Of a stretch of DNA of 64,000 nucleotides, positions 32,716 through 64,000 are shown piece after piece (positions within the stretch are counted from its first letter, which is position 1; every line of letters starts with the position of its first letter). A program made the position numbers and the translations under genes. The stretch covers positions 28,247-92,246 of the forward strand of contig MCFE01000337.1 of assembly GCA_002104905.1 (NCBI GenBank), written 5' to 3'. The notes under the pieces are model-generated. The model did not search any database. It saw only the letters and a list, made by a program, of their open reading frames with translations, and was not told the DNA's origin. The stretch comes from Basidiobolus meristosporus CBS 931.73 (Eukaryota > Basidiobolomycota > Basidiobolomycetes > Basidiobolales > Basidiobolaceae).

Positions 32716-32783
32716 ATTGCTTTTATTTTACATCCTATGTATACTAATGTTACAATCAGGAAAACACCTTCTGGCACTTCCTA

Positions 32784-36527: not shown

Positions 36528-36852
36528 TTCCATACCATTGATTGCGTATCTCTTATACCAAGATTATACTGTTGCATGCATACGTGAAGTATACCTAATA
36601 AATGAATAAGTAGACTTTTGCGTGACGATTAATCCCAATGCACCAGTGCAGAAATTTTTTTGAAAAGGAGGGTTTCGGAATGCAGTGCATCACCTGTGGC
36701 CACCCTGTGAATTGTAATGTTACTATCTAATACAAGCTAACTATTTCTGAAGGATCGTTATACCAACACTCTGACATAAGAATCATGTATAGCAATGGTA
36801 ATAATAATGAAGCTCAGTTTTGATATGGTAAAGAGAAGAGTATTTGAGGGTA

Positions 36853-38242: not shown

Positions 38243-38309
38243 TTGCTTTTATTTTACATCCTATGTATACTAATGTTACAATCAGGTGAACACCTTCTGG
38301 CACTTCCTA

Positions 38310-41908: not shown

Positions 41909-42233
41909 TTCCATACCATTGATTGCGTATCTCTTATACCAAGATTATACTGTTGCATGCATACGTGAAGTATACCCAATAAATGAATAAGTAGACTTTT
42001 GCGTGACGATTAATCCCAATGCTCCGGTGTTGAAGTTTTTTGAAAAGGAGGGTTTCGGAATGCAGTGCATCATCTGCGGCCACTCTGTGAATTGTAACGT
42101 TACTTTCTAATATAAGTTTACTATTTCTGAAGGATCGTTATACCAACACTCTGACATAAGAATCATGTATAGCAACGGTAATAATAATGAAGCTCAGTTT
42201 TGATATGGTAACGAGAAGAGTATTTATGGGTAT

Positions 42234-42840
42234 TTCGTTTTCTCTGACATAGAGAAGCACACAATCATACCCTCCGACACCCATACATACGGATTGTTTT
42301 ATGTTTGAAGTAGCACAACATATTTAGTGGAACAGCAACATTCTCGTAATGAGATCTGGGTGGAATAGAAGTTGAACATCAAAAAGTAGTTGTAGTGAAG
42401 GTCAGTAGACTATTCGGTATATACAACGGTAGCCTAGACTTCACATCATTTCTCGAATGCTCAGCAAGATTGGTAAATACCGTTAGAATTATAACTCAGT
42501 TATAGTGAATAATATTCAAGTAATACAAAGTTATGATACAAGTGCTACATATTTGCGGAACTGACCGCTTTCCTACGCTCATATGCTGCGAATATATTAA
42601 CACAAATCTTATAAAACTTGAGTTGACAGTCAGTGTTACACTTGGCAATAAAAAGCGAAGAGTATGAGCATTGACACGTATTATTCGTCTGTACATCACC
42701 GATAGTTAGATAAAGATTCAAAAATTTACGAGCTGCGACTGCTTGCTACAGAGCTCCAAAGCTTTTGAAATTATGAGTTGGTCCGATATACCACGCTTAT
42801 TGGTTTACAAATTATATGCATCCGCATTTATTTTTACATC
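42234..42840. other. AT-rich spacer before PTR2 copy 4
   Basis: About 600 bp, no supported gene. Confidence 0.5.
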
Positions 42841-42889
42841 CTATTTATACTAATGTTACAATCAGGTGAATACCTTCTGGCACTTCCTA

Positions 42890-46139: not shown

Positions 46140-46178
46140 AAGGTGAGATCTTTATTTTAAATTTTAAATAAAGAAGCC
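46140..46178 (-). mobile_element. LINE/SINE-type 3' tail fragment
   Basis: The motif GGTGAGATCTTTATTTT and AATAAAGAAGCC matches the 3' tail of the LINE and SINE copies further right and is in the same orientation. Its hairpin (CTTTATTT paired with AAATAAAG) has a different sequence but the same form. No coding remnant was recognised beside it. Confidence 0.5.
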
Positions 46179-46199
46179 AGGTCAGACCTCTGATATCTG

Positions 46200-46840
46200 G
46201 GAAGGTGCAAGATTACAAGATGAATATGGACTTCTTTGAATCCCGGACATCCTCAATATTAAAATTAGGTGGAGAAAGGAGTAACACTCCTTGCTCATGA
46301 TAGTGTTTCCTGAAGAAGTTGGTGATTTGGGGAGATTGTAAATTCCTCAATCAACTGGTAATCTTCTGAGGAGCTCTTTTTTGAAGGAGAACAGCCTGAA
46401 GAGAGGACTGCCAAAGTGGTGTCTGAGCAAATATTCAGAGGGCTCCCAATCAATGATATTGGGGATTGTCTGGCAGGAAGAGAGGCAGTCTTGCCTGTGC
46501 TTTCCCTACAAAAATAATTGTAATGAATCCATCAAAAGGCTGTCACAAAATTTAAATCCTGTGACTAAGAGGTATTGATGCCACTAGGACACTGTGCAGC
46601 ACTTGTTGGAAAAAAATTGCACCTCAGATTTCACAAAAAACTTTGCCCAAGCTTTTGATCATAACAACCCCTAAGCAGATTTTGATTGGTACTCTGACAT
46701 TTTTGCTAAATACAGGAGATGATTGAGTGTCCAGGATTGGATAGTAAGAGAAATAGCAGATACCCAATCAATAACCCCATCTTCTTGATTATATCCAGTG
46801 TAAGGCTGTAGAGTAAGAACTAAATTAGCCCCATTTGGTT
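46200..46840. other. Unrecognised sequence between LINE fragments
   Basis: Possibly the degraded body of the preceding element. A 65-codon plus-strand ORF at 46381-46578 has no recognisable features and is not called. Confidence 0.4.
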
Positions 46841-46867
46841 AGGTTTAGGTTGCTGGGTTAGAATTAG

Positions 46868-47217
46868 GTGGGAGACAGTTCCCACCAGGTGTGATCTTTA
46901 TTTTAGCTGAAACAAAGAAGCCAGTGCTACTGTTGTAGCATTGATACAAGAATGTGTAGCTGAGGGGAGTTGGTAGACAATTAATAAGAGATGAAGGCTC
47001 TTCAGTGCTTAAGACATTATTCAGTGGGAATGGGGGGGGGGGTAAGTGAGATAAGATTGACATGTCAACAACATCTATAAGGGGAACATGATATTGGCTG
47101 AAACCATTGTAAAGGGAGTGTGCTGCTTCAGATATTGCTGAAAACAATCTGCCTAGGACTTTTATAGGCCAGCTTGGGCTTGTTGTAAGAGTCTTGGAGA
47201 GATTGTAAGTCATTGGA
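46868..47217 (-). mobile_element. 5'-truncated, diverged LINE copy
   Basis: Reading on the minus strand, the sequence is a diverged version of the LINE C-terminus (YHVPLIDVVD, PPFPLNNVLSTEE compared with YHIPLINVVH, PPFPLNSVLSTEE) followed by the shared 3' tail. The 3' end abuts degenerate telomere-like DNA (46840-46867) and the 5' end abuts GGGTTAGGG at 47217-47229. It is the oldest-looking LINE copy. Confidence 0.75.
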
Positions 47218-47229
47218 AAGGGTTAGGGG

Positions 47230-48654
47230 GAGACAGTCACCAACAGGTGAAGTCTTTATTTCAGTAGAAATAAAGAAGCCAGCACTATTGTTGTAGCTCT
47301 GATACAAGAGTGTGTAGCTGAGGGGAATTTGTAGGTAAGTTAATAAGAAGTGATGATAGCTCTTCAGTGCTCAAGACACTGTTCAGTGGGAAGGGGGGTA
47401 GCAAGAGAGGTATGAATGACTTGTGAACAACATTAATGAGGGGAATGTGATAAGGATTGATATTCATCATAAAGGGAGTGTGCTGCTGCAGATATTGCTG
47501 CCAAAGGTCTGTCAAGTACTTTAGGTAGGCTAGCTTGGGTTTTTCTGACTGCAGAATATATTGAGCAAACTTTTTGACTTCAGGATCTCCAAGTATAGTT
47601 CTCCAGCAGGAGTCAGGTGTAGTGTGGTGTGTTCTCTTCCATGCCTTAATCAGTGGGTTGTTGCAGTGGTGAAGTCTGAGGTATAATCTGGTTCTAAGGT
47701 AGAGAAGTCTGATCTTGTAGGGCATAAACCCAAAAGCACCAAGAATAGCATGTCTGTAGGGGCATTCAGGCAAATGAGGCACCAAGGAAGTAATGCACCA
47801 TACTGCAAACTTGTCAAGCTTAGTGCAGTCTCTAGAAGTAAGAGAGAGAAGTGGTAAGCCAAATTCCAGGACAGGGAAGACAAACTGCTTGAGTAGAAGG
47901 AGGCAGCTGGGAGCTGAAGTTGTAGGAGGAGTAACAGCCAGTAGCTTGTGGAGTGCCTGTCTTGCCAGGATAATTCTCTTCTTCAGGTGTGCTCCAGAGT
48001 CTAGTCCAGTAGGAAGGAAAGGAAAGCCAAGATATGTAGCAGAAACCTGAGCAGGTAGAGTGGAGTTCTCCAAGTTGATGGGAGAGCCCAAAGGCACTGT
48101 CTTTGCAATGGAAAGCTGGAGATTATTCTTCTGCAGATAGTGGTGGATGGTCTGGGAGTCTTGTTGCACATTGGAGGAGGATATTCTGATGTCATCAGCA
48201 AAGAGAGTAACCAGGCAGTCAGCTGAGAGTCTTGGAAAATCATTCAGGAAGATGGCAAACAGTATAGGACCAAGCACAGAGCCTTGAACCACCCCATTGG
48301 GAACTGAGAACACAGCTGATTGCTCACTTGGGTGAAGAATTCTTGCTTGTGGATCCAGAAACAGAGACCTGACAAGGAGGGTGAGAGATGTACAGGAGAA
48401 ACATTGCAACTTGGACCAAAGCAGATTTCTGTCAACTGAATCAAAGGCCTTAGTAATATCAAACAGAACAGAGGGATACTTGAACTGGAGAGAGTGATCT
48501 TGGCTAAGTATGACTGCATATTCCAAGGAGAGGCCAGGAACAAAGCCAAACTGTGCAGGGTGAAACTTGAGGGAGTCAGAGTAGAGCTCCTGAGCAAGCA
48601 GAAGCTCAAACACCTTTCTGCAGGTGGGCAGCAGAGATATTGGCCTGTAGGAGC
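47230..48654 (-). mobile_element. 5'-truncated LINE copy with reverse transcriptase C-terminal part
   Basis: Open frame 47285-48654 of about 450 codons lacking a start. It holds the RT motifs LFDITKAFDSV and LFADDIRISS and the thumb/C-terminal region, ending LVSELQQ. The 5' end stops inside RT at GAGC, where the fuller copy (60038-62856) continues, and is joined to TTAGGG. The 3' tail starts at the GGTTAGGGGG junction near 47220-47229. Confidence 0.85.
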
Positions 48655-48664
48655 TTAGGGGGGG

Positions 48665-49182
48665 AGGAAAGTCACCAAGTGGTGAAATCTTTATTTACTT
48701 ATGACAAGTATCCAAAGAAGCCATTTTAATCTGAAGTAATTCCTAGAAAGCTAGGTCTGAGAGATATCTTCCTGGTAAGCCAGGTCTGATAGTTGAGAAG
48801 CTGAGTGGTACTGTATTTCCTAGTTAGCTAGGTCTGAGAGAGGTTTCCTGGGAAGCCAGGCCTGAGAAGTGAGAATCTGAGTATATCTGAGGTGAGTTGT
48901 ACTGATTTGCGGTAGCTTGTTTGTGGCCAGAATGGCCAGTAGACTGGGGGAACTGAGGGGTATTTCTGGGTGATCACTGGCCAAATTTACTAGGCAAATC
49001 TGACCAATTAGCATTTCAAGGATTTCAGCCAATCAGAGCCTTTACTTTGCCCGATGGTTGATCAAGCCATCTCCCAATGAGCACACATCAATTTATTGAT
49101 CAAGTTTTGTTGGATCCAGGATTTGAACCCACAACCATGGGTATGGAAGGGTTAGGGATAACCACAAGGCTAAGTGTTCTTG
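48665..49182 (-). mobile_element. tRNA-headed SINE with LINE-like 3' tail, copy 1
   Basis: About 518 bp, nearly identical to 59508-60027. On the minus strand the 5' head has an A-box-like TAGCCTTGTGG (49172-49162) and a perfect B-box GGTTCAAATCC (49129-49119), the internal Pol III promoter of tRNA genes, about 32 nt apart. The body has four small hairpins at 48742-48860. The 3' tail (48665-48717) shares the GTCACC-loop-GGTGAAATCTTTATTT motif with the LINEs. It lies between LINE copies at TTAGGG junctions. Structure fits a SINE mobilised by the LINE; no coding capacity is expected. Confidence 0.75.
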
Positions 49183-49189
49183 GTTAGGG

Positions 49190-49926
49190 GAGACAGTCAC
49201 CAACAGGTGAAATCTTTATTTCAGTTGAAACAAAGAAGCCAGCGCTACTGTTGTAGCTTTGATACAAGAGTGTGTAGCTGAGGGGAATTTGTAGGTAAGT
49301 TAATAAAAAGTGATGATAGTTCTTCAGTGCTCAAGACACTGTTCAGTGGGAAGGGGGGTAGCAAGAGAGGTAAGAATGACTTGTGAACAACATTAATGAG
49401 GGGAATGTGATAAGGATTGATATTCATCATAAAGAGAGTGTGCTGCTGCAGATATTGCTGCCAAAGGTCTGTCAAGTACTTCAGGTAGGCCAGCTTGGGT
49501 TTTTCTGACTGCAGAATATAGTGAGCAAACTTCTTGACTTCAGGATCTACAAGTATAGTTCTCCAGCAGGAGTCAGGTGTAGTGTGGTGTGTTCTCTTCC
49601 ATGCCTTAATCAGTGGGTTGTTGCAGTGGTGAAGTCTGAGGTATAATCTGGTTCTAAGGTAGAGAAGTCTGATCTTGTAGGGCATAAACCCAAAAGCACC
49701 AAGAATAGCATGTCTGTAGGGGCATTCAGGCAAATGAGGCACCAAGGAGGTAATGCACCATACTGCAAACTTGTCAAGCTTAGTGCAGTCTCTAGAAGTA
49801 AGAGAGAGAAGTGGTAAGCCAAATTCCAGGACAGGGAAGACAAACTGCTTGAGTAGAAGGAGGCAGCTGGGAGCTGAAGTTGTAGGAGGAGTAACAGCCA
49901 GTAGCTTGTGGAGTGCCTGTCTTGCC
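49190..49926 (-). mobile_element. 5'-truncated LINE copy
   Basis: Contains the last ~225 codons of the LINE protein, in frame apart from lacking the 5' part, and the complete 3' tail. The 5' end breaks at CTTGCC, where fuller copies continue AGGATAATTC, and is followed by TTAGGG at 49926-49931. Confidence 0.85.
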
Positions 49927-49969
49927 TTAGGGTGTAGGTGTTATAGTAAGGGCTAGGAAAAGGTTAGAA

Positions 49970-50043
49970 GAGCAGGGGGTCTGGGGGACGCAGTCCCCTA
50001 GAGAATAAAAAAGCAGGGGGTTTGGGGGATGCAATCCCCCATA
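49970..50043. repeat. Two GC-rich hairpin repeats
   Basis: Two similar units, GCAGGGGGTCTGGGGGACGC and GCAGGGGGTTTGGGGGATGC, each followed by a CCCC(C) run that can pair with the G runs. They differ at matching positions, so each fold is kept. Function unknown. Confidence 0.5.
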
Positions 50044-50574
50044 CTGCTCCCATACTCTTTAAATTCCCGTTGGATTACTTTTCTCTCATTCTTGGTTCTG
50101 GTCCCTTAGGGTTAGAATTCCTCCTCCTAACCCTTATCACCCTAACCATGAATATTTTTACCCTACAATTGGCACATTGTCTGCTCATATAGTGGGCATG
50201 TCTGGGCCAATATTTGTCTCCCTATACTGTCCATATGCTCTGTATAAGTCTTGATGACTATTTAATTAATAAATTGTTATTTTTAATGTATATCTAATAA
50301 TCAATGGGATTCATCCCAATCTGACCACAATCCCATATTTTGATAAGCTTTGGGCACCATAAATTGCGCAGCCCTAATATGATAAAAAAATTCATGGCCA
50401 ATACAAATTTTCTGTAACCCAATTGCTTTTACCAAATATAAAGTGTATCCCAAAGTTCCATATATATTATGGCTATAATAGAAACTTTATTTGACACCAT
50501 CGCAACTACTACTTATGTTCTATGCGCACATGTATCCTGCGGGAATTGTAAAACTTAGCCACATGGTACAAAAG

Positions 50575-51195
50575 TGCTTTTATTTTTCATCATGATAGTT
50601 TTACATGAGTTCCTAACGCACTTTGAAAGTATGCAGTAGCCATACCCCAACAGGTTTTAAGGATGTCCACTAGCTACGTCTACTTGTGTCTAGCGGGGGC
50701 CATCAATCATCAGCCGTGCAATACTGAAATGCTTTTATTTTTCATCATGCTAGTTTTGTATGAATCCCTAATGCACTTTCATAGTGCGCGGTAACCATAC
50801 CCCAACAGGTTTTAAGGATACCCACTTGCTACATTTACTTGTGTCTAGCGGGAGTCATCAATCATCAGCCGCGCGGTAATAAAGTGCTTTTATTTCTCAT
50901 CATGATAGTTTTACATGAGTCCCTAACACACTTTTATAGTGCGCGGTAACCGTACCCCAACAGGTTTTAAGGATACCCACTTGCTACGTTTACTTGTGTC
51001 TAGCGGGAGTTATCAATCATCAGCCGCGTGGTAATAAAGTGCTTTTATTTTTCATCATGATAGTTTTACATGAGTCCCTAACGCACTTTTATAGTGCGCG
51101 GTAACCATACCCCCAGAAAGTAGTGTGGATGCTTACTTTAAACGCTCACTTGTGTATTGTACGGACTATCAACAAACAGCCGCGTGGGAATGGAA
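50575..51195. repeat. Tandem repeat, about 155 bp x 4
   Basis: Units begin at 50575, 50731, 50885 and 51041, each with GCTTTTATTT, then ATAGTTTTACATGAGTCCC, CCATACCCCAACAGGTTTTA, CTTGTGTCTAGCGGGAG and ATCATCAGCCGCG. The fourth unit diverges after about 70 bp. This looks like a subtelomeric satellite. Confidence 0.85.
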
Positions 51196-51572
51196 CATCA
51201 TAGAAAAGCATTGCTTTGTTGTTAGCAGGTATTGATGCGCAAATAGTGGTACTATGTGAATTATTGAGTAACTATTTACTCTAGTTGGTTCCAAGATATT
51301 CCTAGACAATATGCTCAAAATCAATATTAGCATCAATAGCTTGCTCTTTGATCACTAAACCACCGCACCCAATATGCGGTGGCCTTGGTTTTGTCTAGCC
51401 GTCAAGGAATGAAACCAGAATACGGTCACAAGAGAGGCAAAAGTGAAATGTGATGAAGTAAGTGTATATGAAAGTATTATAAATCTACAGGACAGAAGAG
51501 AACAACTAGTAGTTAAACAGCACTCACTGACACTCCACCAAGTAGAGCACCAACACGGACAATAAACAAGTC

Positions 51573-52034
51573 ATGAGGGGAAAGCTTAAGGACCGCTACT
51601 TGGGGATCAAGACCAAAAGAGGAAGCTGCCTCTACCATAGCAGTCCTTGCGCTCCAAAGGAAGACCAAGAGTCTATTATAGACAAAGATTGCGGCAAGAA
51701 GAGCAGTACAATTACCAGTTCTGGTAGTGGTACCTTTGGAAGTCCCAAATACCTGGAGAAAACTTGGAAAAAATTGGCAGATGACTCAGTTGTCCTGAGG
51801 AGAAAACAAACCAATGTGATTGAGCAGTTCCAAAACAAACTTCAGCTTAGTTCTTCTTTGCCTCACTATAAAGTACTCCAAGTGGCTTATTTGGATTATA
51901 AGTGTATGAAGGAGAATCAGGCAGAGACTGATCAATTAAGTGATAGTCAATTGCATCACTTCTTAGATCAGGTAGAGAAACAGTCGCACAGCCAAGAGAC
52001 GGAACAAGAATTGACAATTACAGAAACCAAATAA
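51573..52034 (+). CDS. Unknown protein, 153 residues, subtelomeric
   Basis: Single-exon ORF with its own TATAAAT box at 51478-51484 (about 95 bp upstream) and AATAAA signals just after the stop (near 52060), so it looks like a real Pol II gene. The N-terminus is basic (MRGKLKDRYLGIKTKRGS), with a Ser/Gly linker, then a helical part (NVIEQFQNKLQLSSSLPHYKVL) and an acidic Gln-rich tail. No family recognised. It is co-directional with the next ORF and the helicase pseudogene. Confidence 0.55.
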   Translation: MRGKLKDRYLGIKTKRGSCLYHSSPCAPKEDQESIIDKDCGKKSSTITSSGSGTFGSPKYLEKTWKKLADDSVVLRRKQTNVIEQFQNKLQLSSSLPHYKVLQVAYLDYKCMKENQAETDQLSDSQLHHFLDQVEKQSHSQETEQELTITETK

Positions 52035-52266
52035 TTTTGCCAATGTAGTTTTGCATTTTAATAAAATAAAAGGGTGTTAATAAGAACAGAATAAAGTTAA
52101 CTCATGTGTACATCAAATGATTCAAATACTGGCTAGATGGATGTTATGTAGGAGCAAGAAGCTCAGTAACCTCAAAGGAAAGATATGATGAATGGGCCTC
52201 CAACATCATCCAAATGAGTATAAAAGTGGAGAAAGGAGACATAATCCTTCATAAAAAACAAGAAGC

Positions 52267-53073
52267 ATGGAAGCAGGCAGTAGCCGGGTAGATGCCAGGA
52301 GTGAAGGTAGAGTACAAAGAGAGCGAGGAAGGGGACAAGGACGCGGAAGAGGATGCGGAACCAGGTGCGGAAGAGGAAGAGGGCAAGGAAGTGGCCAAAT
52401 CCAAGAGGAGCGTGAAGGAGGTGTTGCAGCAAACGTGGATGATGCTGAGCAAGTTGCTGTAGTCACTACCAGGCAGCCGGTCAACCAAGTTTCCCAAGCA
52501 TTGTCAGAGGTTCAACAAGAGCTTCCGGAATATAGGACAACATCGCACCATGAGATATTGCGACGTATGTGCCAGGAGATTAAACAGAGGAGGGGTGATA
52601 TTGTAAAGCTAAATCGGGATATTGCTGGACTTCAAGCCCAGATTGATTACAGTTTCCACCATTCTACTGAGGCATTAGTGGCACAAATGGTGGAAAAGTT
52701 TGCCTGCATCAGGGCAAGCGATGAGCAGGGTGCATCTTCCAACCCAGGTGTACTTGCAAGCGACAGTATTGGAGGGTATACTACTTCCTCCCTTGAACCT
52801 ACCACAAGCCAAGAGACAAGAGCAGAATCCTCCACAACAATGAGAATGGCCCCCACGCAGGTTGATATGGAAGTGTGCAAAGAAGACGTGGAGAAGCAGA
52901 GTGGGGATACTATAGGCCAACCAGAAACTGTAATGGAGGCGGAGAGACCAAGTCATATTGTCATCTTAAAAATACCACAGGTTGATTCATCGCTATCACT
53001 TCCCCCATCATCACTATCTGTGCCCCCATCACCACTATCTGTGCCCCCATCACCACCGCCATCCTCTGGCTAA
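52267..53073 (+). CDS. Unknown RG-rich coiled-coil protein, 268 residues
   Basis: Single-exon ORF with TATAAAAG at 52219-52226, 41 bp before the ATG, and AATAAA just after the stop. Residues about 14-45 form an Arg-Gly rich stretch of the kind that binds RNA or G-rich nucleic acid. A coiled coil follows (EILRRMCQEIKQRRGDIVKL onwards), then a Ser/Thr-rich linker and three PPSSLSV-type repeats at the C-terminus. No family recognised. RNA or telomere binding is only a guess from composition. Confidence 0.55.
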   Translation: MEAGSSRVDARSEGRVQRERGRGQGRGRGCGTRCGRGRGQGSGQIQEEREGGVAANVDDAEQVAVVTTRQPVNQVSQALSEVQQELPEYRTTSHHEILRRMCQEIKQRRGDIVKLNRDIAGLQAQIDYSFHHSTEALVAQMVEKFACIRASDEQGASSNPGVLASDSIGGYTTSSLEPTTSQETRAESSTTMRMAPTQVDMEVCKEDVEKQSGDTIGQPETVMEAERPSHIVILKIPQVDSSLSLPPSSLSVPPSPLSVPPSPPPSSG

Positions 53074-53164
53074 CTTGAGTAAATAAAGAATTTCCACCAT
53101 CCCAAATCAATGAATTGACAAGTAATAAGTTGAACTGATAAGATTGACAATTTACAGACTAATA

Positions 53165-53188
53165 GACTTGTTCCATTGTACCGTGCCA
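53165..53188 (+). repeat. Left terminal inverted repeat of DNA transposon
   Basis: Starts GACTTGTTCC and ends GTGCCA; preceded by the TAATA target duplication at 53160-53164. Confidence 0.8.
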
Positions 53189-53941
53189 GGGCGCGTGGCG
53201 CGATCCGCGGTTGCAAAGAACGATCGGGCGCAATATTATAGCTACCAGAAGGCAGGATTGTTCTTGGACAATTTTGCACTATGCGGGACGATCTCGCACA
53301 CTATGGCACAATCTGACACGATGAGGTTGGCACGGATGATCGCGCCAACTTGTAATGCTTGCATCATGTGCGCAATGGGATACCGCTATAATGGCAGGTA
53401 AAATCCGGTATTTGGATATGTTTCTTTAATGTAAATGGAAATAAATGTGTATCACACTATAAACTACACTGATACTTACCATTTTGGTTACCCTCACTCC
53501 AATTGGATGGTATCTCAGTGGTTAATTGGTCCAAAAGTATCCTGAAGCTGGCAGCCCCCAATTGGCTCATTGACTACTGAAAAAGCTACCTGATTTGCCA
53601 TCAAATATCCCATTTTGCCCATTGAGCAAGTAAATCCCTGATCCTAGTGATTGGGCAAGGTGTCATAGCTAGCATGCAAGCAATCGTGTAGGTGCAAAAC
53701 AGATCCAATAGCTGCACTGGTATTACCAATGACGTATATATATGCAGGGTGTTTATTTATAGGGGTTCTGTCTCAAATGTGAGACGACCTTGATATTACT
53801 TATATCAAAAATTTGATGATCACTGATTTGCAATGGCTTGATTCGGATCGCAAAAAAAAAGGGTTGTCGGGATCATTACAAATGTGAGCAATTCAAAGCA
53901 ATGGCATCATCTTCTCCTGGGTTTTTTTCTCACAGGGATTA

Positions 53942-55162
53942 CTACTGAGCATTTGGTAGTGACTCACTTTGCACACCTATACTACTTCCTGGCTGACTAT
54001 CATCTTGGCTACTTGTGTATTTGTAGTCAGTATTTTGCCTCCTAGTTGATGAGTGCGATGCTGCAGCTTGGCCGCGCTGAATCACTCCGACTGAACCAAC
54101 TGAACCAACTGAACCGGCCTGTAGTGCCACGCGCTGACGCGTTCTTTTACTTGTCAAGGGCTCCGGTGGTTGAGTCACTTCATGTTGGTCATCATCAGTC
54201 AGTTCACCAGAAGTAACTCGCTGATGGTCAGGCAAAACGGCACGCGCAGGCACGCCTTGACGCGTTGAGATGGCCCTTGGCTGAGTTGGATGTGATGCCG
54301 CATGTTGATGCGACTCGGTCCGCTCCAATGGACTTGTGTCTAAATGAGCAGTTTGGCAAGTTCTGGTAGTTTTGCTCTGAAGCGCGCGCGTTGACCCGAC
54401 ACGCATTGACTCAACGCGGGGCGTTCTGGTAAAGGGTGTTGGCGTGGTCTGGACTGACGTGCGCCGGCGCGCTGTGGTTGCAAGAGATGGTAGGGAATCC
54501 AGCAAGGCATGCTGGCGCAATCTGGACAATGTTGCTCGCGGTCTGTATTCTTCCTCCTGAAGCTCACCATCTGATTCCTCAAGGTATTCACTTACCCTCT
54601 GTCTGATACTTTGGAGCTGTTGCCTGGATGAGTCCTGTGTATATTGCTCTCGGAAGCCACTTAGCTCTACCAATATATCACGTAGTACATTAGTCATTTG
54701 AGGCAAAAACTCATTCAAAATCTCTTTGGTTCCCAAAGTTGAGGCACAAACGGACGCGTCCAGCCCGTACTGTGCAAATTGCGCGTGAAATCATTCCCGC
54801 GCGGCTTCCTCGTCAAATCCCCTCACTCTCAGCTCATTCTTGATTTCAATACTTGTCTTGTTATATATCTTTTTACATACATCGGCTGGCATCTTGATGT
54901 AGAACTCATGCCACAGCTTTCTACTCAAATTCTTCCATCTTTGTTGACTCTCTGAGGTATCTAGTTCTGCTAGATTAATCAGTAGTGCCCAAATATCTGT
55001 ATGAAGGCTCATCATAGACACTTGGGCCATACTAAAATCATTTGGCGAGAACTCAAACGGATCCAACATCAACTTTTCCGGTCCGGACCGCGCTTGTGAG
55101 CTGGGGGATGGGTTTTGTCTGGGTTGTACTAAAGATGAGTTGAGGCTTGGTATGGGGACCAT
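53942..55162 (-). CDS. Second transposon protein (accessory), unknown family
   Basis: ATG at 55162. The frame meets a TGA at 54793-54791, but a GTGAGG donor (54826) and a CACAG acceptor (54770) define a 57-nt intron that removes it and keeps frame; exons are then 54827-55162 and 53942-54769, giving 387 residues. The first exon has a compact helical region (QQRWKNLSRKLWHEFYIK, VCKKIYNKTSIEIKNELR). The second has a helical start (LPQMTNVLRDILVELSGFRE) and then a long Arg/Ser/Thr/Gln-rich, basic, probably disordered part with a GSVGSVGSVG repeat. It may be the DNA-binding partner that Harbinger transposases need, but no Myb/SANT motif is certain. Confidence 0.6.
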
Positions 55163-55521
55163 AGCAACGGATTTGGATACTTATACAGCAGTATATTGGC
55201 ATCAACCTGGTCTTATATGAGATATATATGAAAACTAAAGTGATTGTTGAATTTTCCATATATTATGCATGATGCATCTCGGATCGCGTTGACACAGATC
55301 AGATCACATCAATTGCAGATTTCCTATTTGATTATAGACCTATGATTAAAGCATCAATAAAAGTACCAAGGCATTGTTTGCGGATGATTTTTGCGACATA
55401 ATGATGGGATACATGGCAATTGATGGAGATTTAACCATAATGTGTTAAAAATCAGATAAATAACGCAGATCGCGCCAAATCAATTCAAACCGCCTCCATA
55501 CAATCATCCATCAATTTTAAT
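55163..55521. promoter_or_regulatory. Divergent promoter region inside the transposon
   Basis: About 360 AT-rich bp between the two divergent transposon genes. No clear TATA box was assigned. Confidence 0.4.
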
Positions 55522-56406
55522 ATGACTTACTCATCTGAATGGTCTTTTCTCATCAATCCCATCACTACCACTGGATTTCCTTTTGACACCCTGGAGGAGA
55601 TCTATTCCAAGTACTGTGGACCATCAACCCCAATCTACTCAAGGAGATCCCTTGTTAAGCTTCTCTGCTATTACAAGAACTATTGCCCTACAAGGTTTCA
55701 TCCCACCATCCATGGCAACAAAAGTCCTAGAAGCTTTCATTCCCAGCTGACAGCAATGGAGAACCACCTTGCAGAGGGTATGAATGACTTAGAGCAAGCT
55801 TGGAATACTAGGTTCAGAAGCTCCAATAGACTTCCGTATCCCAGAGTGTTCAGCAACAGGTTCCATATCAGGAGTATTTTGGATACCTTCCCAGTGAGGA
55901 TTAACAGACCTTCTAGAGGGCAGAGGCACTTTTATTCTGGCAAGTACAAGGCACACTGTGTGAAGTTTCAAGCACTGTCTGACATTGAGGGTAACATCAT
56001 CTGGTTTAGTGGGCCATTTGCTGGAAGTAGGCATGACAAAGCAATCTGGGTAGAGAATCATCCTGAATTCAGTAGAGGGGAGAAATGTATGGCAGACTTG
56101 GCCTATATAGGAGAGGATTGTCAGAGATTAGGATGTATTACAGCTTATAGGAAGCCAAGGAATGGTGTGCTTAGCAGGAAGCAGAAGCTCTACAATGAGA
56201 TATTTAATCATTTCAGAGTAAGGGTAGAGTACACATTTGGATATCTGAAGAGATTCAGCATATTGGCAGGTAAATACAGAGGAAAGTCATATATAGGAGA
56301 AAACAGCAGAATAGGTAAAATAGTTAAGATACTTATCAATGCACAGTATGTTCATACAAGAAGACATCCACTGAGAGAAATGTGTCTGGAGCATTATGAA
56401 GAGTAA
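55522..56406 (+). CDS. DDE superfamily transposase (Harbinger/PIF, DDE_4 type)
   Basis: Catalyses cut-and-paste of the surrounding element. Single exon, 294 residues. The DDE triad is complete: Asp121 in SILDTFPVRI, Asp192 in CMADLAYIGED and Glu236 in VRVEYTFGYLKRF. Further family landmarks are YSGKYKAHCVKFQ, SDIEGNIIWFSGPFAGSRHD and FSRGEKCM. The N-terminus has a short helical region but no long DNA-binding domain, consistent with a partner protein. The intact frame and TIRs suggest the element could still be active. Confidence 0.9.
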   Translation: MTYSSEWSFLINPITTTGFPFDTLEEIYSKYCGPSTPIYSRRSLVKLLCYYKNYCPTRFHPTIHGNKSPRSFHSQLTAMENHLAEGMNDLEQAWNTRFRSSNRLPYPRVFSNRFHIRSILDTFPVRINRPSRGQRHFYSGKYKAHCVKFQALSDIEGNIIWFSGPFAGSRHDKAIWVENHPEFSRGEKCMADLAYIGEDCQRLGCITAYRKPRNGVLSRKQKLYNEIFNHFRVRVEYTFGYLKRFSILAGKYRGKSYIGENSRIGKIVKILINAQYVHTRRHPLREMCLEHYEE

Positions 56407-56693
56407 ATAAAGCAAGGAAAGCACTATTCTGAGCAACATAAGTAAGATTGAGTAAAATTACCAGTAACTGTATCATACCACTGGCATCATGGTAGAAATT
56501 ATAGTGCCAGATAGTGCCGTAGAGTGCCAGATCAATCCGGCACTATAAACCGGCTGGCACTATGTGGCACTATCCAACGGAACAAGTCTAATATATGTAA
56601 AGTATGTAGTACTTAAGAGCTTTCAAGTTGTGGTGTATTATCAAGTATTCACCGTCACATAAATCACGCAGCAGTTGTTGTATCCCTATCCCA

Positions 56694-59495
56694 ATGGCAT
56701 TAGAAGCCAGCAGTTACAAGGAGCATCGGAAAAATTTTGGCATTTACCTGGCGACGGTGGCAGGTGTAACAAAATGCAGCTATTGCTCAATGACCATTAC
56801 CCTGTCTATGAGATACTTGCTATTATATGGAGGGTATTCTGTTGAGCACTTTCAAGACAGCAAAATATCCCCGCCTTATGATGAGCGTATAGCTGAAGAA
56901 ACATCCGGCCGTGGAATACTCTATGAGCCCAGCTCAAAGGTTCAAATGATTCACCTTGCTGATCTACACGGTGATGAAGACATCACAGTGACAGTTCTCC
57001 CAACTCCAGACAACATATCAACTACAGAGGCAGCCAAAGGGGTGATTTTAATTGGCAACAGCTGTGCTACTGACCACAAAAATCTCTACATATATGGTGG
57101 TTTTGAGCTGAGCCGTAGAGAATACTCAGGGCAACATGAAAGTGCCAAAAAACGGGGGAAAAAAGCAATACAAAGCAAGAGTGGGGAGACAATCAATAGA
57201 AGACTGAGCAAGCTGGAGGTAATCATGTACAAAGATGGCAATGGATGCTCCAGAGTATTGGAGACAAGGCCATTCTTGAATAATCCGGCAAATATGCCTT
57301 CAGCAAGAGGTTGGGCAGTTCTTACGTACGCATTTGATTGCTTATTCTTGCTGGGTGGCTATCCTACACCATTGGAACCACCTTATACCCAACCAAATGG
57401 GAGTTTTTTAAACAAGTTCTACTGTTTAAAATTGCAAACTGGTGATTGGGAAAGACAATATGTACACTCAGCAATACAGGAGCTTGGAGAAAACTTTATT
57501 GCTGTGGTAAACAAGTATGGCAACCAAATCCAATACATCAACAATGCAAATGTTACATTCACCTATGATGTCAATAATCAGATCTGGATTTACCCTCCTG
57601 ATCCAAGTCAGGAAGAAATGAGTACAAAGCAGCTACTAGGGCGCATTCTTAATGAATTGGCAACAATCTCTCAGCAGCACAAGAGGGAAGGCGAAGGAAG
57701 TGCTGAGACTGAAAATATCTTGCGGCATAGTGCCCATGGTCTTACTGTCCCACTTAAGAACCATCAAGCATTTGGCGTACAATGGCTGATGTATACAGAG
57801 GCCATCCATAAAGGAGCATTGCTTGCCGATTCCATGGGACTTGGAAAGACATTGCAGATATTAAGTCTCATATTGGAGACACCTGAGCAAAGGCCAAATC
57901 TTATTGTTGTCACGCTTGGAATACTTCTCAATTGGGTGATGGAGATAAAGTCAAAAACAAGGATATCCAATGAAGAGCTTCATGTATTTCATGGAAAATT
58001 CCGAGCTATCAAGAAGTCAGATATGGAAACTAAGAGGATTGTGCTCACCACCTACCACACACTATGTGTTGAAGCAAGGAACCCTGATTTGCCTATATGG
58101 AATGTGAAATTTGGCCAAATAGTGGCCAATGAGGCAGATACACTTAAGAACTACAAAGGTGGTAGCTTAAATGCAGTGAGTAAAATTGATGGAGAATCCT
58201 TGATACTTGTCACTGCCACCCCATTCCAAAATGAGATTATGGATCTTCATTCATATCTCACATTATTCAATCTATGGGAAGGCATTCCAAAGGATTTCCA
58301 TCGACTCCTACTTGAGGAGGCCAATGCAAACAGGCTAGTTGAATGGGTTGTAGAAAGACTTGGCTCATTAATATTGAGACGCGTCCAGAGTCGCAAATAT
58401 TTGGAGAACGCGCAGTATCCATGCCTAGTATTCAAGAGCAGATTGTCTTGTGCCAATTCTTGCCGGAGGAGCTGCAGGAGTACAAACAACTGCAGTCAAG
58501 TCTTCCAGAGGAAGTCGGTCGGATGGGTGCAAATACCTATCTGCATCTGTACTCATGCCATCCATATATGTATACCTGGAGCAGGAAGAGGAATTGGCTG
58601 AAAAAAGCGGCTGATGCTAGCATTGTCCAAGATGTCAAGATGAGTGAGGATGATTTTGTACCTGAGATTGATGAGGATCTTGAGGCGGTTGCGGTTGAGG
58701 TTGAGGAGCAGCTTCAAGAGATTAATAGCGAAGTGGTTGACAGCTCATCCAATGTTCCATCTACTTCTGCACCAACTGCCATACGCACCAAAGACGCCCC
58801 TACAATTGCCCAAAGAGGGCTTGCGTTAGAGGACTCCAACAGGGTATTCATCCAAGATTTCCTCACTGGTGTAACCAACAACACTGTGAACGAGCATAGT
58901 GGCAAAACTCGGAAAATCATGGAAATCCTGCTTGAAATCCAAGAAAATAAGGAGCACGCACGTGTTATTATTTTTTCTGGGTTTAATCTGATGCTTGACA
59001 TAGTGGCTTACCATTTGAGGGAGCAGAGCATTGAACATCTGAAGATTACCGGTTCCACCCCAGTTTGGATACAAAAGAGCAGTATAGATACATTTGCATT
59101 ACCAGTTCCGGAGGGCAAGATTTGTGTGTTACTGATCAATGTCAAATGTGGCGCATTTGGATTAAATTTGCAGATGGCATCAGTGGTGATCATTGCCGAC
59201 AATCGGTGGAATCCCTATGTAGAAATTTAAGTGAAGGCCAGAGTTTGGAGGGTGAATCAACCAAATAATGTTTCTAGTTACCAGTTAGTCATGCAAGATT
59301 CCATTGAAGCTCAGGGTGTAATTGACAGTCAAACTCGTAAGATTGGCTTATTTGGCCAGATTACGCATACGTTGGTAGATGAAGCATCCAAAGTACCAAT
59401 TTCATTACAACTTCAAGATCAAGATGATTGGTACTTGAGCCAATTACATGAAGCGCAAGGCAGTGGATCTCTGATGCACGAAGATGAAGAGGAGG
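56694..59495 (+). pseudogene. SNF2-family helicase-like gene with kelch-like N-terminus, broken
   Basis: ATG at 56694. The N-terminal ~300 residues include kelch-type motifs (YLLLYGGYS, LYIYGGFEL, LFLLGGYPTP). Then comes a SNF2 ATPase: LKNHQAFGVQWLMYTE, Walker A DSMGLGKT near residue 379, ILVTATPFQN. Motif II reads NEAD at 479-482 instead of DEAH, so the catalytic Asp is lost. The frame shifts by one base between about 58380 and 58400 (after SLILRRV). The downstream frame carries the helicase C-lobe (RVIIFSGFNLMLDIV, GAFGLNLQMASVVIIADNRWNP) and hits TAA at 59228-59230. The same frame continues with KARVWRVNQP-type motif VI-like sequence and stops where telomeric repeats begin. Confidence 0.85.
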
Positions 59496-59507
59496 TAGGG
59501 TTAGGGG
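59496..59507 (+). repeat. Interstitial telomeric repeat at broken helicase gene
   Basis: TAGGGTTAGGG directly follows the coding remnant of the helicase gene and directly precedes the SINE 3' end. Confidence 0.75.
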
Positions 59508-60027
59508 GGAGGAAAGTCACCAAGTGGTGAAATCTTTATTTACTTATGACAAGTATCCAAAGAAGCCATGTTAATCTGAAGTAATTCCTAGAAAGCTAGG
59601 TCTGAGAGATATCTTCCTGGTAAGCCAGGTCTGAGAGTTGAGAAGCTGAGTGGTACTGTATTTCCTAGTTAGCTAGGTCTGAGAGAGGTTTCCTGGAAAG
59701 CCAGGCCTGAGAAGTGAGAATCTGAGTATATCTGAGGTGAGTTGTACTGATTTGCGGTAGCTTGTTTGTGGCCAGAATGGCCAGTAGACTGGGGGAACTG
59801 AGGGGTATATCTGGGCGATCACTGGCCATATTTACTAGGCAAATCTGACCAATTAGCATTTCAAGGATTTCAGCCAATCAGAGCCTTTACTTTGCCCGAT
59901 GGTTGATCAAGCCATCTCCCAATGAGCACACATCAATTTATTAATCAAATTTTGCTGGATCCAGGATTTGAACCCACAACCATGGGTATGGAAGGGTTAG
60001 GGATAACCACAAGGCTAAGTGTTCTTG
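59508..60027 (-). mobile_element. tRNA-headed SINE, copy 2
   Basis: Nearly identical to 48665-49182. A-box at 60017-60007, B-box at 59974-59964, the four body hairpins at about 59586-59705, and the 3' tail with TCACC-AAGT-GGTGA at 59516-59529. It sits between the telomeric junction at 59496 and the LINE starting at 60038. Differences from copy 1 are few and lie mostly in loops. Confidence 0.75.
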
Positions 60028-60037
60028 GTTAGGGGGG

Positions 60038-62856
60038 AGACAGTCACCAACAGGTGAAATCTTTATTTCAGTTGAAACAAAGAAGCCAGCGCTACTGTTG
60101 TAGCTTTGATACAAGAGTGTGTAGCTGAGGGGAATTTGTAGGTAAGTTAATAAGAAGTGATGATAGTTCTTCAGTGCTCAAGACACTGTTCAGTGGGAAG
60201 GGGGGTAGCAAGAGAGGTAAGAATGACTTGTGAACAACATTAATGAGGGGAATGTGATAAGGATTGATATTCATCATAAAGGGAGTGTGCTGCTGCAGAT
60301 ATTGCTGCCAAAGGTCTGTCAAGTACTTCAGGTAGGCCAGCTTGGGTTTTTCTGACTGCAGAATATAGTGAGCAAACTTCTTGACTTCAGGATCTCCAAG
60401 TATAGTTCTCCAGCAGGAGCCAGGTGTTGTGTGGTGTGTTCTCTTCCAGGACTTAATCAGTGGGTTGTTGCAGTTGTGAAGTCTGAGGTATAATCTGGTT
60501 CTAAGGTAGAGAAGTCTGATCTTATAGGGCATAAACCCAAAAGCACCAAGAATAGCATGTCTGTAGGGGCATTCAGGCAAATGAGGCACCAAGGAGGTAA
60601 TGCACCATACTGCAAACTTGTCAAGCTTAGTGCAGTCTCTAGAAGTAAGAGAGAGAAGTGGTAAGCCAAATTCCAGGACAGGGAAGACAAACTGCTTGAG
60701 TAGAAGGAGGCAGCTGGGAGCTGAAGTTGTAGGAGGAGTAACAGCCAGTAGCTTGTGGAGTGCCTGTCTTGCCAGGATAATTCTCTTCTTCAGGTGTGCT
60801 CCAGAGTCTAGTCCAGTAGGAAGGAAAGGAAAGCCAAGATATGTAGCAGAAACCTGAGCAGGTAGAGTGGAGTTCTCCAAGTTGATGGGAGAGCCCAAAG
60901 GTACTGTCTTTGCAATGGAAAGCTGGAGATTATTCTTCTGCAGATACTGGTGGATGGTCTGGGAGTCTTGTTGCACATTGGAGGAGGATATTCTGATGTC
61001 ATCAGCAAAGAGAGTAACCAGGCAGTCAGCTGAGAGTCTTGGGAAATCATTCAGGAAGATGGCAAACAGTATAGGACCAAGCACAGAGCCTTGAACCACT
61101 CCATTAGGAACTGAGAACACAGCTGATTGCTCACTTGGGTGCAGAATTCTTGCTTGTGGATCCAGAAACAGAGACCTGACAAGGAGGGTGAGAGAGGTAC
61201 TGGAGAAGCATTGCAACTTGGACCAAAGCAGATTTCTGTCAACTGAATCAAAGGCCTTAGTAATATCAAACAGAACAGAGGGATACTTGTACTGGAGAGA
61301 GTGATCTTGGCTAAGTATGACTGCATATTCCAAGGAGAGGCCAGGAACAAAGCCAAACTGAGCAGGATGAAACTTGAGAGAGTCAGAGTAGAGCTCCTGA
61401 GCAAGCAGAAGCTCAAACACCTTTCTGCAGGTGGGCAGCAGAGATATTGGCCTGTAGGAGCTAGGATCCAGGTGCTTTCCTTTACCCTTGTACAGTGGCA
61501 GAACATTTGCAAAGGACCATTCCTCAGGAGTAGAAAGCTGGGCTGAGCATTGCTGAAACAGTGGAAGCAGAAGTGCAGACATGGCCTTGGTACTAGTCTT
61601 CAGAAGCTCATAGGAGATTGTGTCCACACCTGGAGCAGTAGAGTTGGGAAGCCTCTTGAGCACATTATGGATTCTCCTTTGATCAAGTGCAAGTGGGATG
61701 GGCAGAGTCTTGAAGTCAGGATGAAAGCCAGGAGTTGAGTACTGCTTTGTAGAGAAGAAGATGTTAGCCAGCTGTTCTGTTGAAGGTAACTTCCTGGAAG
61801 AGGGCCTCATTGCCCTGTAGAGTCTTGATACTGTTCTTGTTATAGAGTCGGAAGATTGCAGAGGCAAGGAACTCATAATATGATCCCAGAGCTGAGTATG
61901 CAGAGTGTGGTGAATTGCCTTGGAGTGGTGTATTGCTGTCAGGAGGAGTTTCTCTGTTTTTGGGTTAGGGAAGCTCAGGTAGCTTTGTTGCAGGGCTGAA
62001 ACAATGGATTCCCATTTTCTTGAGGTAACAGCAGTAGTCTTGCATGGCAGTGAGAGGGAGGCAGACACCAGAATCAGATGCTTCACAAAGAGCCAGGCAA
62101 AGTTGAGATCATCTGGCAGAGAAAGTAGCAAACTGGCAAGCTTCAAGTAGTTCCCAAAGTCTTTCTTCTGATTCTTGGTAGCTTTGTGGGTGAGCACAGT
62201 AAGTTTTGGCAGCTTCTTCTTCACAACTGGTTGCATAGAAAGGGACCAGGCTGGGTGGTCAGAGGCTCTCAAGGATCCTAGCTCAGCTCCAGAGAATTGC
62301 TTAACTTCATTCACAAAGTAGAGGGCAGCAGCAGAAGGGCAGATCCAGTCAACACATCTTTTCTCAGATTGGGCACCTAGTACTAGCAGGTGGCTTTCTC
62401 TCAGGAAGTTCAGTAGGAATGTAGACCTTGGCTTCATTCTTGCAGTCAGAGTAGTCTTGTTCTCAGGATGGGGAATGTTGAGATCTCCAAGCAAGATAAC
62501 AGGTGTTGATATAGATTGTTGGTATTGCTGAACCTTCTGGCATATAACTTGCACTTCCTGAAGGGCTAGGCTTGGAGGCAGATAGCAGAGCACCAGACTG
62601 ATAGTTGGCAACTGGAGAGCAGCACAGTAAGGGGAGTAAAGAGGAACACAGAGCTGAGGAGTATTGATGGTAGAAGAGATGAAGCAGATAGAGGAGGTAT
62701 TCTTTGTTCTAGGAGTAGAAAAGCAATATAGATTAGTCAAAAGTATAGAGGGTAGCTGGACATCAATCAAACACAGGAGGGAAAATATTGAAAGAAGTCT
62801 CTCTAGAGTTGGTCTTGATGGCTGTATGCTGTTGCAGTTAAGCAACAGAACTTCAG
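60038..62856 (-). mobile_element. Longest LINE copy: endonuclease plus reverse transcriptase
   Basis: Non-LTR retrotransposon with one long frame (stop at 60092) of about 920 codons. N-terminal endonuclease/exonuclease/phosphatase (APE-type) domain: VLLLNCNSI, LLGDLNIPHP, ASDHPAW. Then reverse transcriptase: YKGKGKHLDPSSYRPISLLP, FGFVPGLSLEYAV, LFDITKAFDSVD, NGVVQGSVLGPILFAIFLND, and FADD encoded at 61009-60998. A C-terminal region with Cys/His residues near CPYRHAIL follows. The frame has no ATG at its left end: upstream codons come from the neighbouring element's tail, so the copy is slightly 5'-truncated at the start of the endonuclease domain. The 3' tail carries two hairpins (60044-60057, 60061-60082) and no poly(A). 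Confidence 0.9.
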
Positions 62857-62864
62857 GTAGGGGG

Positions 62865-63763
62865 GAGACAGTCACCAACCGGTGAAATCTTTATTTCAGT
62901 TGAAACAAAGAAGCCAGCGCTACTGTTGTAGCTTTGATACAAGAGTGTGTAGCTGAGGGGAATTTGTAGGTAAGTTAATAAGAAGTGATGATAGTTCTTC
63001 AGTGCTCAAGACACTGTTCAGTGGGAAGGGGGGTAGCAAGAGAGGTAAGAATGACTTGTGAACAACATTAATGAGGGGAATGTGATAAGGATTGATATTC
63101 ATCATAAAGGGAGTGTGCTGCTGCAGATATTGCTGCCAAAGGTCTGTCAAGTACTTCAGGTAGGCCAGCTTGGGTTTTTCTGACTTCAGAATAAATTCAG
63201 CAAACTTCTTGACTTCAGGATCTCCAAGTATAGTTCTCCAGCAGGAGCCAGGTGTTGTGTGGTGTGTTCTCTTCCAGGCCTTAATCAGTGGATTGTTGCA
63301 GTTGTGAAGTCTGAGGTATAATCTGGTTCTAAGGTAGAGAAGTCTGATCTTATAGGGCATAAACCCAAAAGCACCAAGAATAGCATGTCTGTAGGGGCAT
63401 TCAGGCAAATGAGGCACCAAGGAGGTAATGCACCATACTGCAAACTTGTCAAGCTTAGTGCAGTCTCTAGAAGTAAGAGAGAGAAGTGGTAAGCCAAATT
63501 CCAGGACAGGGAAGACAAACTGCTTGAGTAGAAGCAGGCAGCTGGGAGCTGAAGTTGTAGGAGGAGTAACAGCCAGTAGCTTGTGGAGTGCCTGTCTTGC
63601 CAGGATGATTCTCTTCTTCAGGTGTGCTCCAGAGTCTAGTCCAGTAGGAAGGAAAGCAAAGCCAAGATATGTAGCAGAAACCTGAGCAGGTAGAGTGGAG
63701 TTCTCCAAGTTGATGGGAGAGCCCAAAGGTACTGTCTTTGCAATGGAAAGCTGGAGATTATTC
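62865..63763 (-). mobile_element. 5'-truncated LINE copy abutting the terminal telomere
   Basis: Contains the last 268 or so codons of the LINE protein and the full 3' tail (with loop AACC in the TCACC/GGTGA hairpin). Its 5' end stops at GGAGATTATTC, where the long copy continues TTCTGCAG, and the terminal TTAGGG array begins there. Nearly identical to the long copy, so it is young. Confidence 0.88.
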
Positions 63764-64000
63764 TTAGGGTTAGGGTTAGGGTTAGGGTTAGGGCTAGGGT
63801 TAGGGTTAGGGTTAGGGTTAGGGTTAGGTTAGGGTTAGGGTTAGGGTTAGGGTTAGGGTTAGGGTTAGGGTTAGGGTTAGGGTTAGGGTTAGGGTTAGGG
63901 TTAGGGTTAGGGTTAGGGTTAGGGTTAGGGTTAGGGTTAGGGTTAGGGTTAGGGTTAGGGTTAGGGTTAGGGTTAGGGTTAGGGTTAGGGTTAGGGTTAG
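63764..64000 (+). repeat. Telomere, (TTAGGG)n, right chromosome end
   Basis: About 39 units of TTAGGG reading outwards, with two variants close to the inner edge (one CTAGGG, one TTAGG). The array runs to the window edge. It marks the G-rich strand towards the right end. Confidence 0.97.

Follow-up and report, generated by a model that had tools for sequence, protein, structure and literature searches.

A LINE and its SINE partners on telomeric repeats in Basidiobolus meristosporus: anatomy of the arrays and a possible route onto chromosome ends

In Drosophila, the retroelements HeT-A, TART and TAHRE are added as complementary DNA (cDNA) to the chromosome end itself, with their 3' ends toward the centromere, and they build head-to-tail arrays with 5' truncations in a host that has neither telomerase nor TTAGGG repeats. 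In Magnaporthe oryzae, MoTeR1 and its non-autonomous partner MoTeR2 form head-to-tail telomeric arrays with 5' truncations, in which the copies are separated by (TTAGGG)n tracts of half a unit to more than 20 units; MoTeR1 carries a restriction-like endonuclease (REL), its 5' end bears variant repeats that resemble the telomere, MoTeR2 has 860 bp at the 5' end and 77 bp at the 3' end in common with it, and de novo telomeres are seeded on 1-4 nt (PMC7367193). FoTeR of Fusarium oxysporum is a non-long-terminal-repeat (non-LTR) element found only at telomeres, where its 3' ends meet TAACCC repeats in tracts of 3-8 units; it has a REL endonuclease and falls in a clade with MoTeR1, Cnl1 and CRE (PMC12857005), and Cnl1 has been placed in the same REL group (PMC12810828). 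In Bombyx mori, SART1 and TRAS1 cut inside TTAGG repeats, join them via poly(A), need their 3' untranslated region (UTR), and have telomeric copies described as full-length (PMC7265360, PMC4700185). Finally, L1 inserts independently of its endonuclease at uncapped telomeres of mutant mammalian cells (Morrish 2007, via PMC4700185). Here, we analyzed a stretch of 64,000 nucleotides (the window) from Basidiobolus meristosporus CBS 931.73, a fungus placed in the Basidiobolomycota, where copies of a long interspersed nuclear element (LINE) and of a short partner (SINE) are stacked on TTAGGG repeats. We propose that chromosome ends are extended by this LINE, which measures about 4.6 kb, together with three or more SINE families bearing its 3' tail; how the copies are primed, by which enzyme and in what order of events, we infer from their anatomy.

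Arrays in the window and their joins to telomeric repeats

The window corresponds to positions 28247-92246 of contig C577 (92,246 bp), in an assembly of 89.0 Mb and 1311 contigs, and its right edge is the contig end, within telomere repeats. It includes a CAND1-like ORF whose 930 residues all match the protein of strain CBS 931.73. Alignment to reference copies confirmed the seven LINE/SINE copies that a first-pass annotation of the sequence had placed at 46868, 47230, 48665, 49190, 59508, 60038 and 62865, all on the minus strand. The features of this region are the following.

46873..47181, minus strand: 3' part of a 5'-truncated LINE, the oldest copy; matches the reference LINE at 80% identity in 315 aligned columns; degenerate inner edge
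47231..48655, minus strand: LINE copy, 5' truncated in ORF2; 97.8% identity; inner edge GGGTTAGGG
48663..49184, minus strand: SINE copy, 98.3% identical to that at 59508; its 5' end is the commonest one, CCAAGAACACTTAGCC; inner edge CTTAGGG
49191..49926, minus strand: LINE copy, 5' truncated; 98.8% identity; its 5' side meets TTAGGG and then unit U
49932..59495, plus strand: unit U, a repeated subtelomeric unit; left edge fixed after TTAGGG, right side cut within an SNF2 gene
59496..59506, plus strand: TAGGGTTAGGG, a healed break that links the cut gene to a SINE, from comparison with paralogues
59508..60029, minus strand: SINE copy with the commonest 5' end, from alignment and sequence
60038..62860, minus strand: LINE copy cut exactly where open reading frame (ORF) 2 starts, from alignment and sequence; inner edge GGTTAGGG
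62866..63765, minus strand: outermost LINE, 5' truncated; 98.9% identity; the terminal telomere tract is its direct cap
63764..64000, plus strand: terminal telomere, (TTAGGG)n, from a repeat scan; adjoins the contig end

Along the plus strand, the order was host DNA or an older element, TTAGGG, the complement of the element's 3' end, a variable 5' point, and then TTAGGG or the next element. TTAGGG had been reported at every inner edge, and this holds for five of the seven copies (47230, 48665, 49190, 59508 and 60038); the inner edge of 62865 is TAGGG, whose TAG doubles as element sequence, and that of 46868 shows degenerate telomere-like sequence only. The single array proposed from 46840 to 63764 stands as two LINE/SINE clusters, and positions 49932-59495 between them belong to unit U, which is not LINE/SINE. 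The joins contain no poly(A), and the first-pass annotation had seen neither poly(A) nor target duplications; no systematic search for the latter was made.

Next, we looked at the same joins across the assembly. The exact 30-base core of the LINE 3' end occurs 626 times (587 forward, 39 reverse) and the exact SINE core 383 times (363 forward, 20 reverse), and with up to three mismatches there are 1231 forward and 116 reverse places, a pattern that should take in the SINE core too. At each of the first 100 LINE places listed, 210 bases were read, the place lists being ordered by contig number and not random, and exact cores favouring young copies. Among these 100 places, the 3' end abutted TTAGGG in 85, TAGGG in 10 and another G-run in 5, and for the first 40 SINE places these counts were 33, 5 and 2, so that the abutment claimed for the window holds beyond it. 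With equal base frequencies, chance would put TTAGGG immediately ahead of a fixed site in 0.02 of 100 copies, versus the 85 LINE copies observed. The phase of TTAGGG at the LINE joins is near-constant. The poly(A) junction of TRAS and SART was not found; in the 100 LINE and 40 SINE joins the C-run of the element lies against TTAGGG or another G-run.

The excess of forward cores (587 versus 39 for the LINE) was rejected as a biological signal, as the telomere repeats are equally skewed and the contigs mostly have their telomere on the right. Assembly-wide, these repeats number 7428 forward versus 81 reverse; this strong bias in the orientation of the ends has the look of an assembly artefact, caused, we presume, by left-end trimming by the assembler. 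Because strand counts carry little information, orientation was measured relative to contig ends, on contigs longer than 50 kb; shorter contigs, whose ends need not be chromosomal, held 61 of the 100 LINE, 29 of the 40 SINE and 2 of 19 hand-picked places and were excluded. Of the 67 copies sampled there, 66 are less than 19 kb away from the end that they face, and one is internal. All the exact LINE copies (39/39, on 24 contigs) and exact SINE copies (11/11) face the nearer end, within 18.2 and 18.4 kb, respectively, and among 17 further hand-picked copies 13/13 SINEs and 3/4 variant LINEs are near the end they face. The 19 hand-picked places, which are not a random set, comprised 13 SINEs, taken from high-coordinate contigs, and 6 of the 7 variant LINEs found, the remaining one lying in the window. 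Contig C291 carries left-facing copies at its left end and right-facing copies at its right end, and among the array neighbours classified none of 49 is in the opposite orientation, with LINE and SINE in mixed order. On contigs shorter than 50 kb, several copies face the farther end (e.g., on C27, C217, C284 and C969, and some of those on C32).

The single orientation relative to the tip proposed earlier was therefore borne out by 66/67 copies on long contigs. Many internal or wrongly facing copies had been named as the observation that would speak against the proposal, and we found only one internal copy (C558) and one facing the farther end on a short contig (C969). Hence, the arrays are telomere-confined, of single orientation and TTAGGG-linked, as in MoTeR, FoTeR and CRE, bar that one internal copy. 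As in HeT-A and TART, the 3' end points toward the centromere and the 5' end faces the tip, judging from the same 66/67 copies together with the terminal gene loss described below, and from this anatomy we infer addition at the end itself. The Basidiobolus copies are thus like HeT-A, TART and TAHRE in their centromere-ward 3' ends, 5' truncations and head-to-tail order, and unlike them they occur in a host with a telomerase sequence and with TTAGGG at tips and joins. The telomerase sequence consists of two adjacent Telomerase_RBD (PF12009) matches above the curated cut-off on contig C880, with an in-frame TAG in one of the two pieces, perhaps an intron. The replacement of telomerase that characterises HeT-A and TART is not seen here, since both this sequence and terminal TTAGGG tracts are present.

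Priming, re-capping and terminal loss

LINE and SINEs end in a shared stem-loop tail followed by a C-run (sense strand), which in most copies adjoins one or two TTAGGG units at their GGG. From this anatomy, the probable explanation is that element RNA is copied directly onto short or broken 3' ends, which telomerase then re-caps. An end stripped of nearly all its telomere, or one broken and given one or two telomerase repeats, would present a G-ended 3'-OH, and element RNA, carried by the reverse transcriptase, would pair with the terminal GGG through its C-run. Copying would lengthen the G-rich strand itself, the cDNA becoming the new chromosome end; telomerase would then seed repeats on the cDNA 3' end, often aided by a chance match of 1-4 nt, fill-in would synthesise the other strand, and repeated rounds would give stacked arrays.

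The length of the tracts at the joins bears on this proposal. In the 100 LINE joins, 64 tracts have one unit, 26 two, 4 none and 6 three to seven, with a median of 9 nt. Terminal tracts, measured in 22 loci that reach the right contig end, span 149-252 nt in 14, the other 8 being without repeats; a separate measurement took 15 chosen tip loci, 14 of them with a tract. The main rival is that the LINE's domain resembling apurinic/apyrimidinic endonuclease (APE) nicks TTAGGG DNA in the manner of TRAS and SART, that the G-strand 3'-OH at the nick primes the copy, and that the distal repeats are lost or become the cap. It would agree with the near-constant phase of TTAGGG and with the motif residues kept in this domain, and SART1 itself relies on its 3' UTR and on pairing with the telomeric target (PMC7265360). 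However, a random nick in a tract of 150-250 nt would leave long proximal tracts, and the median here is 9 nt. SART1 requires at least three repeats (PMC7265360), whereas one or two units are present at 90 of the 100 joins, and no unit at 4; moreover, some joins are GGG only, the joins examined have no poly(A), and the position of the metal-binding Glu is Asp in 36/36 reads (overlapping loci counted) and in 2/2 relatives covering the site. For these reasons, we consider nick priming unlikely. In short, the Basidiobolus LINE is like SART1 and TRAS1 in being a LINE with an endonuclease-like domain in a host with telomeric repeats, and unlike them it joins without poly(A), mostly on one or two units, and leaves 5'-truncated copies.

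The repeats at the joins could also belong to the element RNA, which would end in CCCUAA and be copied in with no need of a telomeric primer. TTAGGG is indeed frequent beside the 3' end, mostly as a single or double unit, and RNA with such tails would be expected wherever an array is transcribed through. However, the tracts vary from none to seven units, including TAGGG and variant units, and the joins at C558, C923 and C969 lack a clean TTAGGG, which makes this source scarcely credible.

A further alternative is that retrotransposition is rare and that exchanges between chromosome ends at homologous TTAGGG, through recombination or break-induced replication, account for most of the spread of the arrays. 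Such replication is documented for MoTeR arrays (PMC7367193), and unit U, with its fixed left edge, is common to chromosome ends. Against this, the 30-mers on the inner side of the telomeric tract are distinct in 93 of the 100 LINE joins, the 3' end is fixed while the 5' ends are scattered, and none of the 49 array neighbours is opposite in orientation, LINE and SINE being in mixed order; this alternative therefore seems very improbable. The sole repeated proximal flank, shared by 8 copies, is the commonest 5' end of the SINE. Segmental duplication as the source of the arrays was ruled out by the same 93 distinct flanks.

At the other side of the copies, the 5' breakpoints are scattered along the LINE, denser toward the 3' end, and are capped by TTAGGG, in agreement with the first-pass annotation; at one locus (L058), a full-length LINE runs directly into the terminal telomere. 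The annotation had also held that copying stopped early and that telomerase re-capped the end. The capped, scattered ends stand. Early stopping does not follow from the scatter, as the same truncation and capping are seen in unit U and in a host gene, and 5' truncation was thus discarded as a proof of aborted copying. We scored 90 unique 5' breakpoints of elements or unit U, after setting aside 10 that coincide with ends of the reference and 11 at which the motif is part of the element. At least 1 nt is common with the telomere repeat in 62/90 versus 47% expected, at least 2 nt in 34/90 versus 19% expected (p about 3e-5), and at least 3 nt in 16/90 versus 6% for random breaks.

Unit U provided evidence of terminal loss. 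It contains 155-bp tandem repeats, a DDE_Tnp_4 ORF and Kelch and SNF2 ORFs (Pfam and repeat scan), and it recalls the Y' elements of yeast. Its first 179 bp gave 167 first-look candidates in the assembly, of which 40 were scored and 20 loci, not a random set, were fetched. The left edge is identical in 20/20, with 19 differing upstream sequences (L224 and L242 are alike), and the left joins are TTAGGG in 14, TAGGG in 2 and otherwise in 4. On its right side in the window, the SNF2-type gene is cut 23 nt short of its stop codon and joined via TAGGGTTAGGG to the SINE at 59508. Among 17 paralogue matches listed, 9 loci were taken and 8 read (L222 did not match the search string), and 8/8 continue to the stop across the cut point; one of these eight (L223, on contig C80) is itself cut just beyond the stop and TTAGGG-joined to a LINE. 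The missing end of the cut gene was not found within the window at up to three mismatches. Since ordinary target-primed insertion would keep the distal target on the far side, and here it is gone, the arrangement points to terminal loss and not to insertion into intact DNA.

Several observations weigh against direct copying onto open ends. A few joins are GGG without TTAGGG, as at C923:45839 (plus strand), where a LINE is joined to unit U at GGG; the GGG-only joins at C923 and C969 suggest that a G-ended primer is what matters. One copy, at C558:99464 (minus strand), is internal to a 218-kb contig, lying 99 kb away from the end that it faces and 119 kb away from the opposite one, with a GGTTAAGGG flank, and is either an internalised relic or a misjoin; another, at C969:38287 (minus strand) on a 45-kb contig, faces the farther end. 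The APE-like domain may, from its sequence, cut DNA. At the 5' breakpoints, filler or mismatched bases occur in 13/90, which the null does not allow, and with these included the mean overlap with the repeat is 0.76 nt versus a null of 0.75 nt. Age shows a weak gradient inward (all 44 copies, rho -0.16, p=0.30; SINE, rho -0.22, p=0.28, n=25; LINE, rho -0.44, p=0.06, n=19), and, not being significant, a gradient along the arrays was dropped. Finally, breakage of interstitial TTAGGG has been reported in M. oryzae for tracts of at least three units (PMC7367193), and survivors could be enriched for short tracts through breakage of long ones. A small test does not favour this: outermost copies (up to 1.1 kb from the end, n=15) and inner copies (at least 5 kb, n=33) both have a median tract of 6 nt (p=0.17), with leading partial units uncounted and 7 reverse copies excluded, and these equal lengths favour ends that were already short over later tract loss.

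The LINE, its proteins and its SINE partners

The full length of the LINE, about 4.6 kb, is a sum of distances from different copies. In the loci read (L051-L062, about 1640-1950), a unit of about 100 bp is repeated in tandem in the 5' UTR of the LINE, with one to three copies. This UTR also holds an internal TTAGGGTTAGGG, and the SINE head holds CCCTAACCC on the sense strand; both are possibly fossil join points. The main protein is encoded in the window as follows.

60092..62860, minus strand: ORF2, 922 aa; APE-like region at about residues 1-202 and reverse transcriptase at 466-678, from Pfam and PDB matches

The reverse transcriptase matched RVT_1 (1.8e-25), which was found in 6/6 members of alignment A2, and LINE-1 ORF2p in the PDB (6.6e-13 with the single sequence and 1.6e-21 with a profile). 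The APE-like region gave Exo_endo_phos_2 at 2e-4 in the window copy, below the Pfam cut-off, 27.5 bits against the cut-off of 27.4 in the relative P0005, and E<0.1 in 4/6 members of alignment A2. The motif residues are kept: the N motif at 8-10, Y93, G-D-x-N at 125-128 (D126, N128) and S-D-H at 200-202 (D201, H202), positions with catalytic roles in APE endonucleases. The APE-type endonuclease named in the first-pass annotation is thus a putative one, APE-like by these residues and by weak Pfam matches, and with a conserved Glu-to-Asp change. The REL motif (CCHC, RHD/RHN, K/R-P/A-D) was not found in the 922-aa ORF2 by a simple pattern. The closest ORF2 proteins are five metagenome sequences with 48-80% identity, followed by LINE proteins at about 30%, which may be Jockey-like, going by one source name (P0073).

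ORF1, of about 500 aa, gave weak coiled-coil matches and no Pfam match above the cut-off. It shares one frame with ORF2, the two being split by TGA CTA in 25/25 reads keeping the junction (overlapping loci counted; e.g., L048 near 1802), and there is no ATG ahead of the first catalytic motif of ORF2. Stop-codon readthrough at UGA CUA has been documented in both fungi and animals (PMC4207609), and it is the probable route to the ORF2 protein here.

The main SINE measures 522 bp, and at least two further SINE families (C and D) were found. The LINE and four SINE sequences of three families have in common the tail CTTCTTT...AAATAAAGATTTCACC-loop-GGTGACT, with differing loops, and this common 3' tail bears out the SINE partnership proposed earlier. 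A tail stem was predicted in all four sequences folded; the LINE tail had a z of -3.3 versus shuffles and the SINEs -0.6 to -1.1, so a stability clearly beyond that of shuffled sequence is confined to the LINE tail. A tRNA gene within the SINE was tried and rejected, as neither ARAGORN nor Rfam found a tRNA in it. The SINE has GGTTCAAATCC and TAGCCTTGTGG, about 43 nt apart, which, compared by eye with the consensus, may be a B box and an A-box-like motif with one mismatch, at tRNA spacing. Just inside the oldest array, at about 46131-46180 of the window, there is a diverged form of the shared 3' tail (AGATCTTTATTTTAAA...AATAAAGAA), perhaps another SINE family.

Further inward, four near-identical ORFs of 539 aa, transporter-like by eye, lie at 29367-30986, 32784-34403, 38310-39929 and 42890-44509, and protease-like ORFs, also named by eye (35671 and 40983), lie between some of them. 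Judging by sequence, the transporter-like set at 29367-44509 is a recent tandem amplification.

Comparison with known systems and significance

The closest working analogue of the Basidiobolus system is MoTeR1/MoTeR2, with a differing endonuclease. Both consist of a fungal non-LTR element and a non-autonomous partner with a common 3' end, in TTAGGG-separated arrays, and the statement in the first-pass annotation that known telomeric elements "differ in detail" understates this likeness (PMC7367193). Unlike MoTeR, the Basidiobolus LINE has an APE-like domain, no REL motif was found in it by the pattern used, the median tract is 9 nt, and the partners share the 3' tail. The system is also like FoTeR, a fungal non-LTR element at telomeres with 3' ends on telomeric repeats, and differs from it in its APE-like domain, where FoTeR has a REL endonuclease, and in its SINEs, none being mentioned for FoTeR in the available part of PMC12857005. 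As in endonuclease-independent L1 insertion, the substrate would be an uncapped end and no usual endonuclease site would be used; unlike those opportunistic events, the Basidiobolus case seems to be the way in which an element family ordinarily lives. Collectively, the system works like MoTeR and HeT-A and, by the features tested, is a member of neither. No account of it was found among the open-access titles and abstracts listed on telomere-bound LINE and SINE pairs, APE-type telomeric LINEs, and Basidiobolus or early-diverging fungi, and a review of zygomycete genomes that covers Basidiobolus does not mention telomeres in the part available (PMC10386755).

The anatomy is a real and strong observation; the mechanism proposed for it is the best of several and unproven. 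We suggest, tentatively, that this telomerase-positive fungus possesses a standing second system of end extension, in which a LINE, whose endonuclease is maybe dispensable, and its SINE families extend uncapped or broken ends and telomerase finishes them. If true, ordinary LINE/SINE retrotransposition has been turned into chromosome-end repair. With this system, the telomere-bound retroelements of fungi come to include an APE-like class of endonuclease and true short partners, outside the REL/CRE group (MoTeR, FoTeR and Cnl1) and in an early-diverging fungal lineage. About 1000 exact copies with mostly independent joins constitute a natural record of the healing of broken ends beside telomerase, and whether a LINE can live on end-priming alone becomes directly testable. 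This also bears on the loss and replacement of subtelomeric genes.

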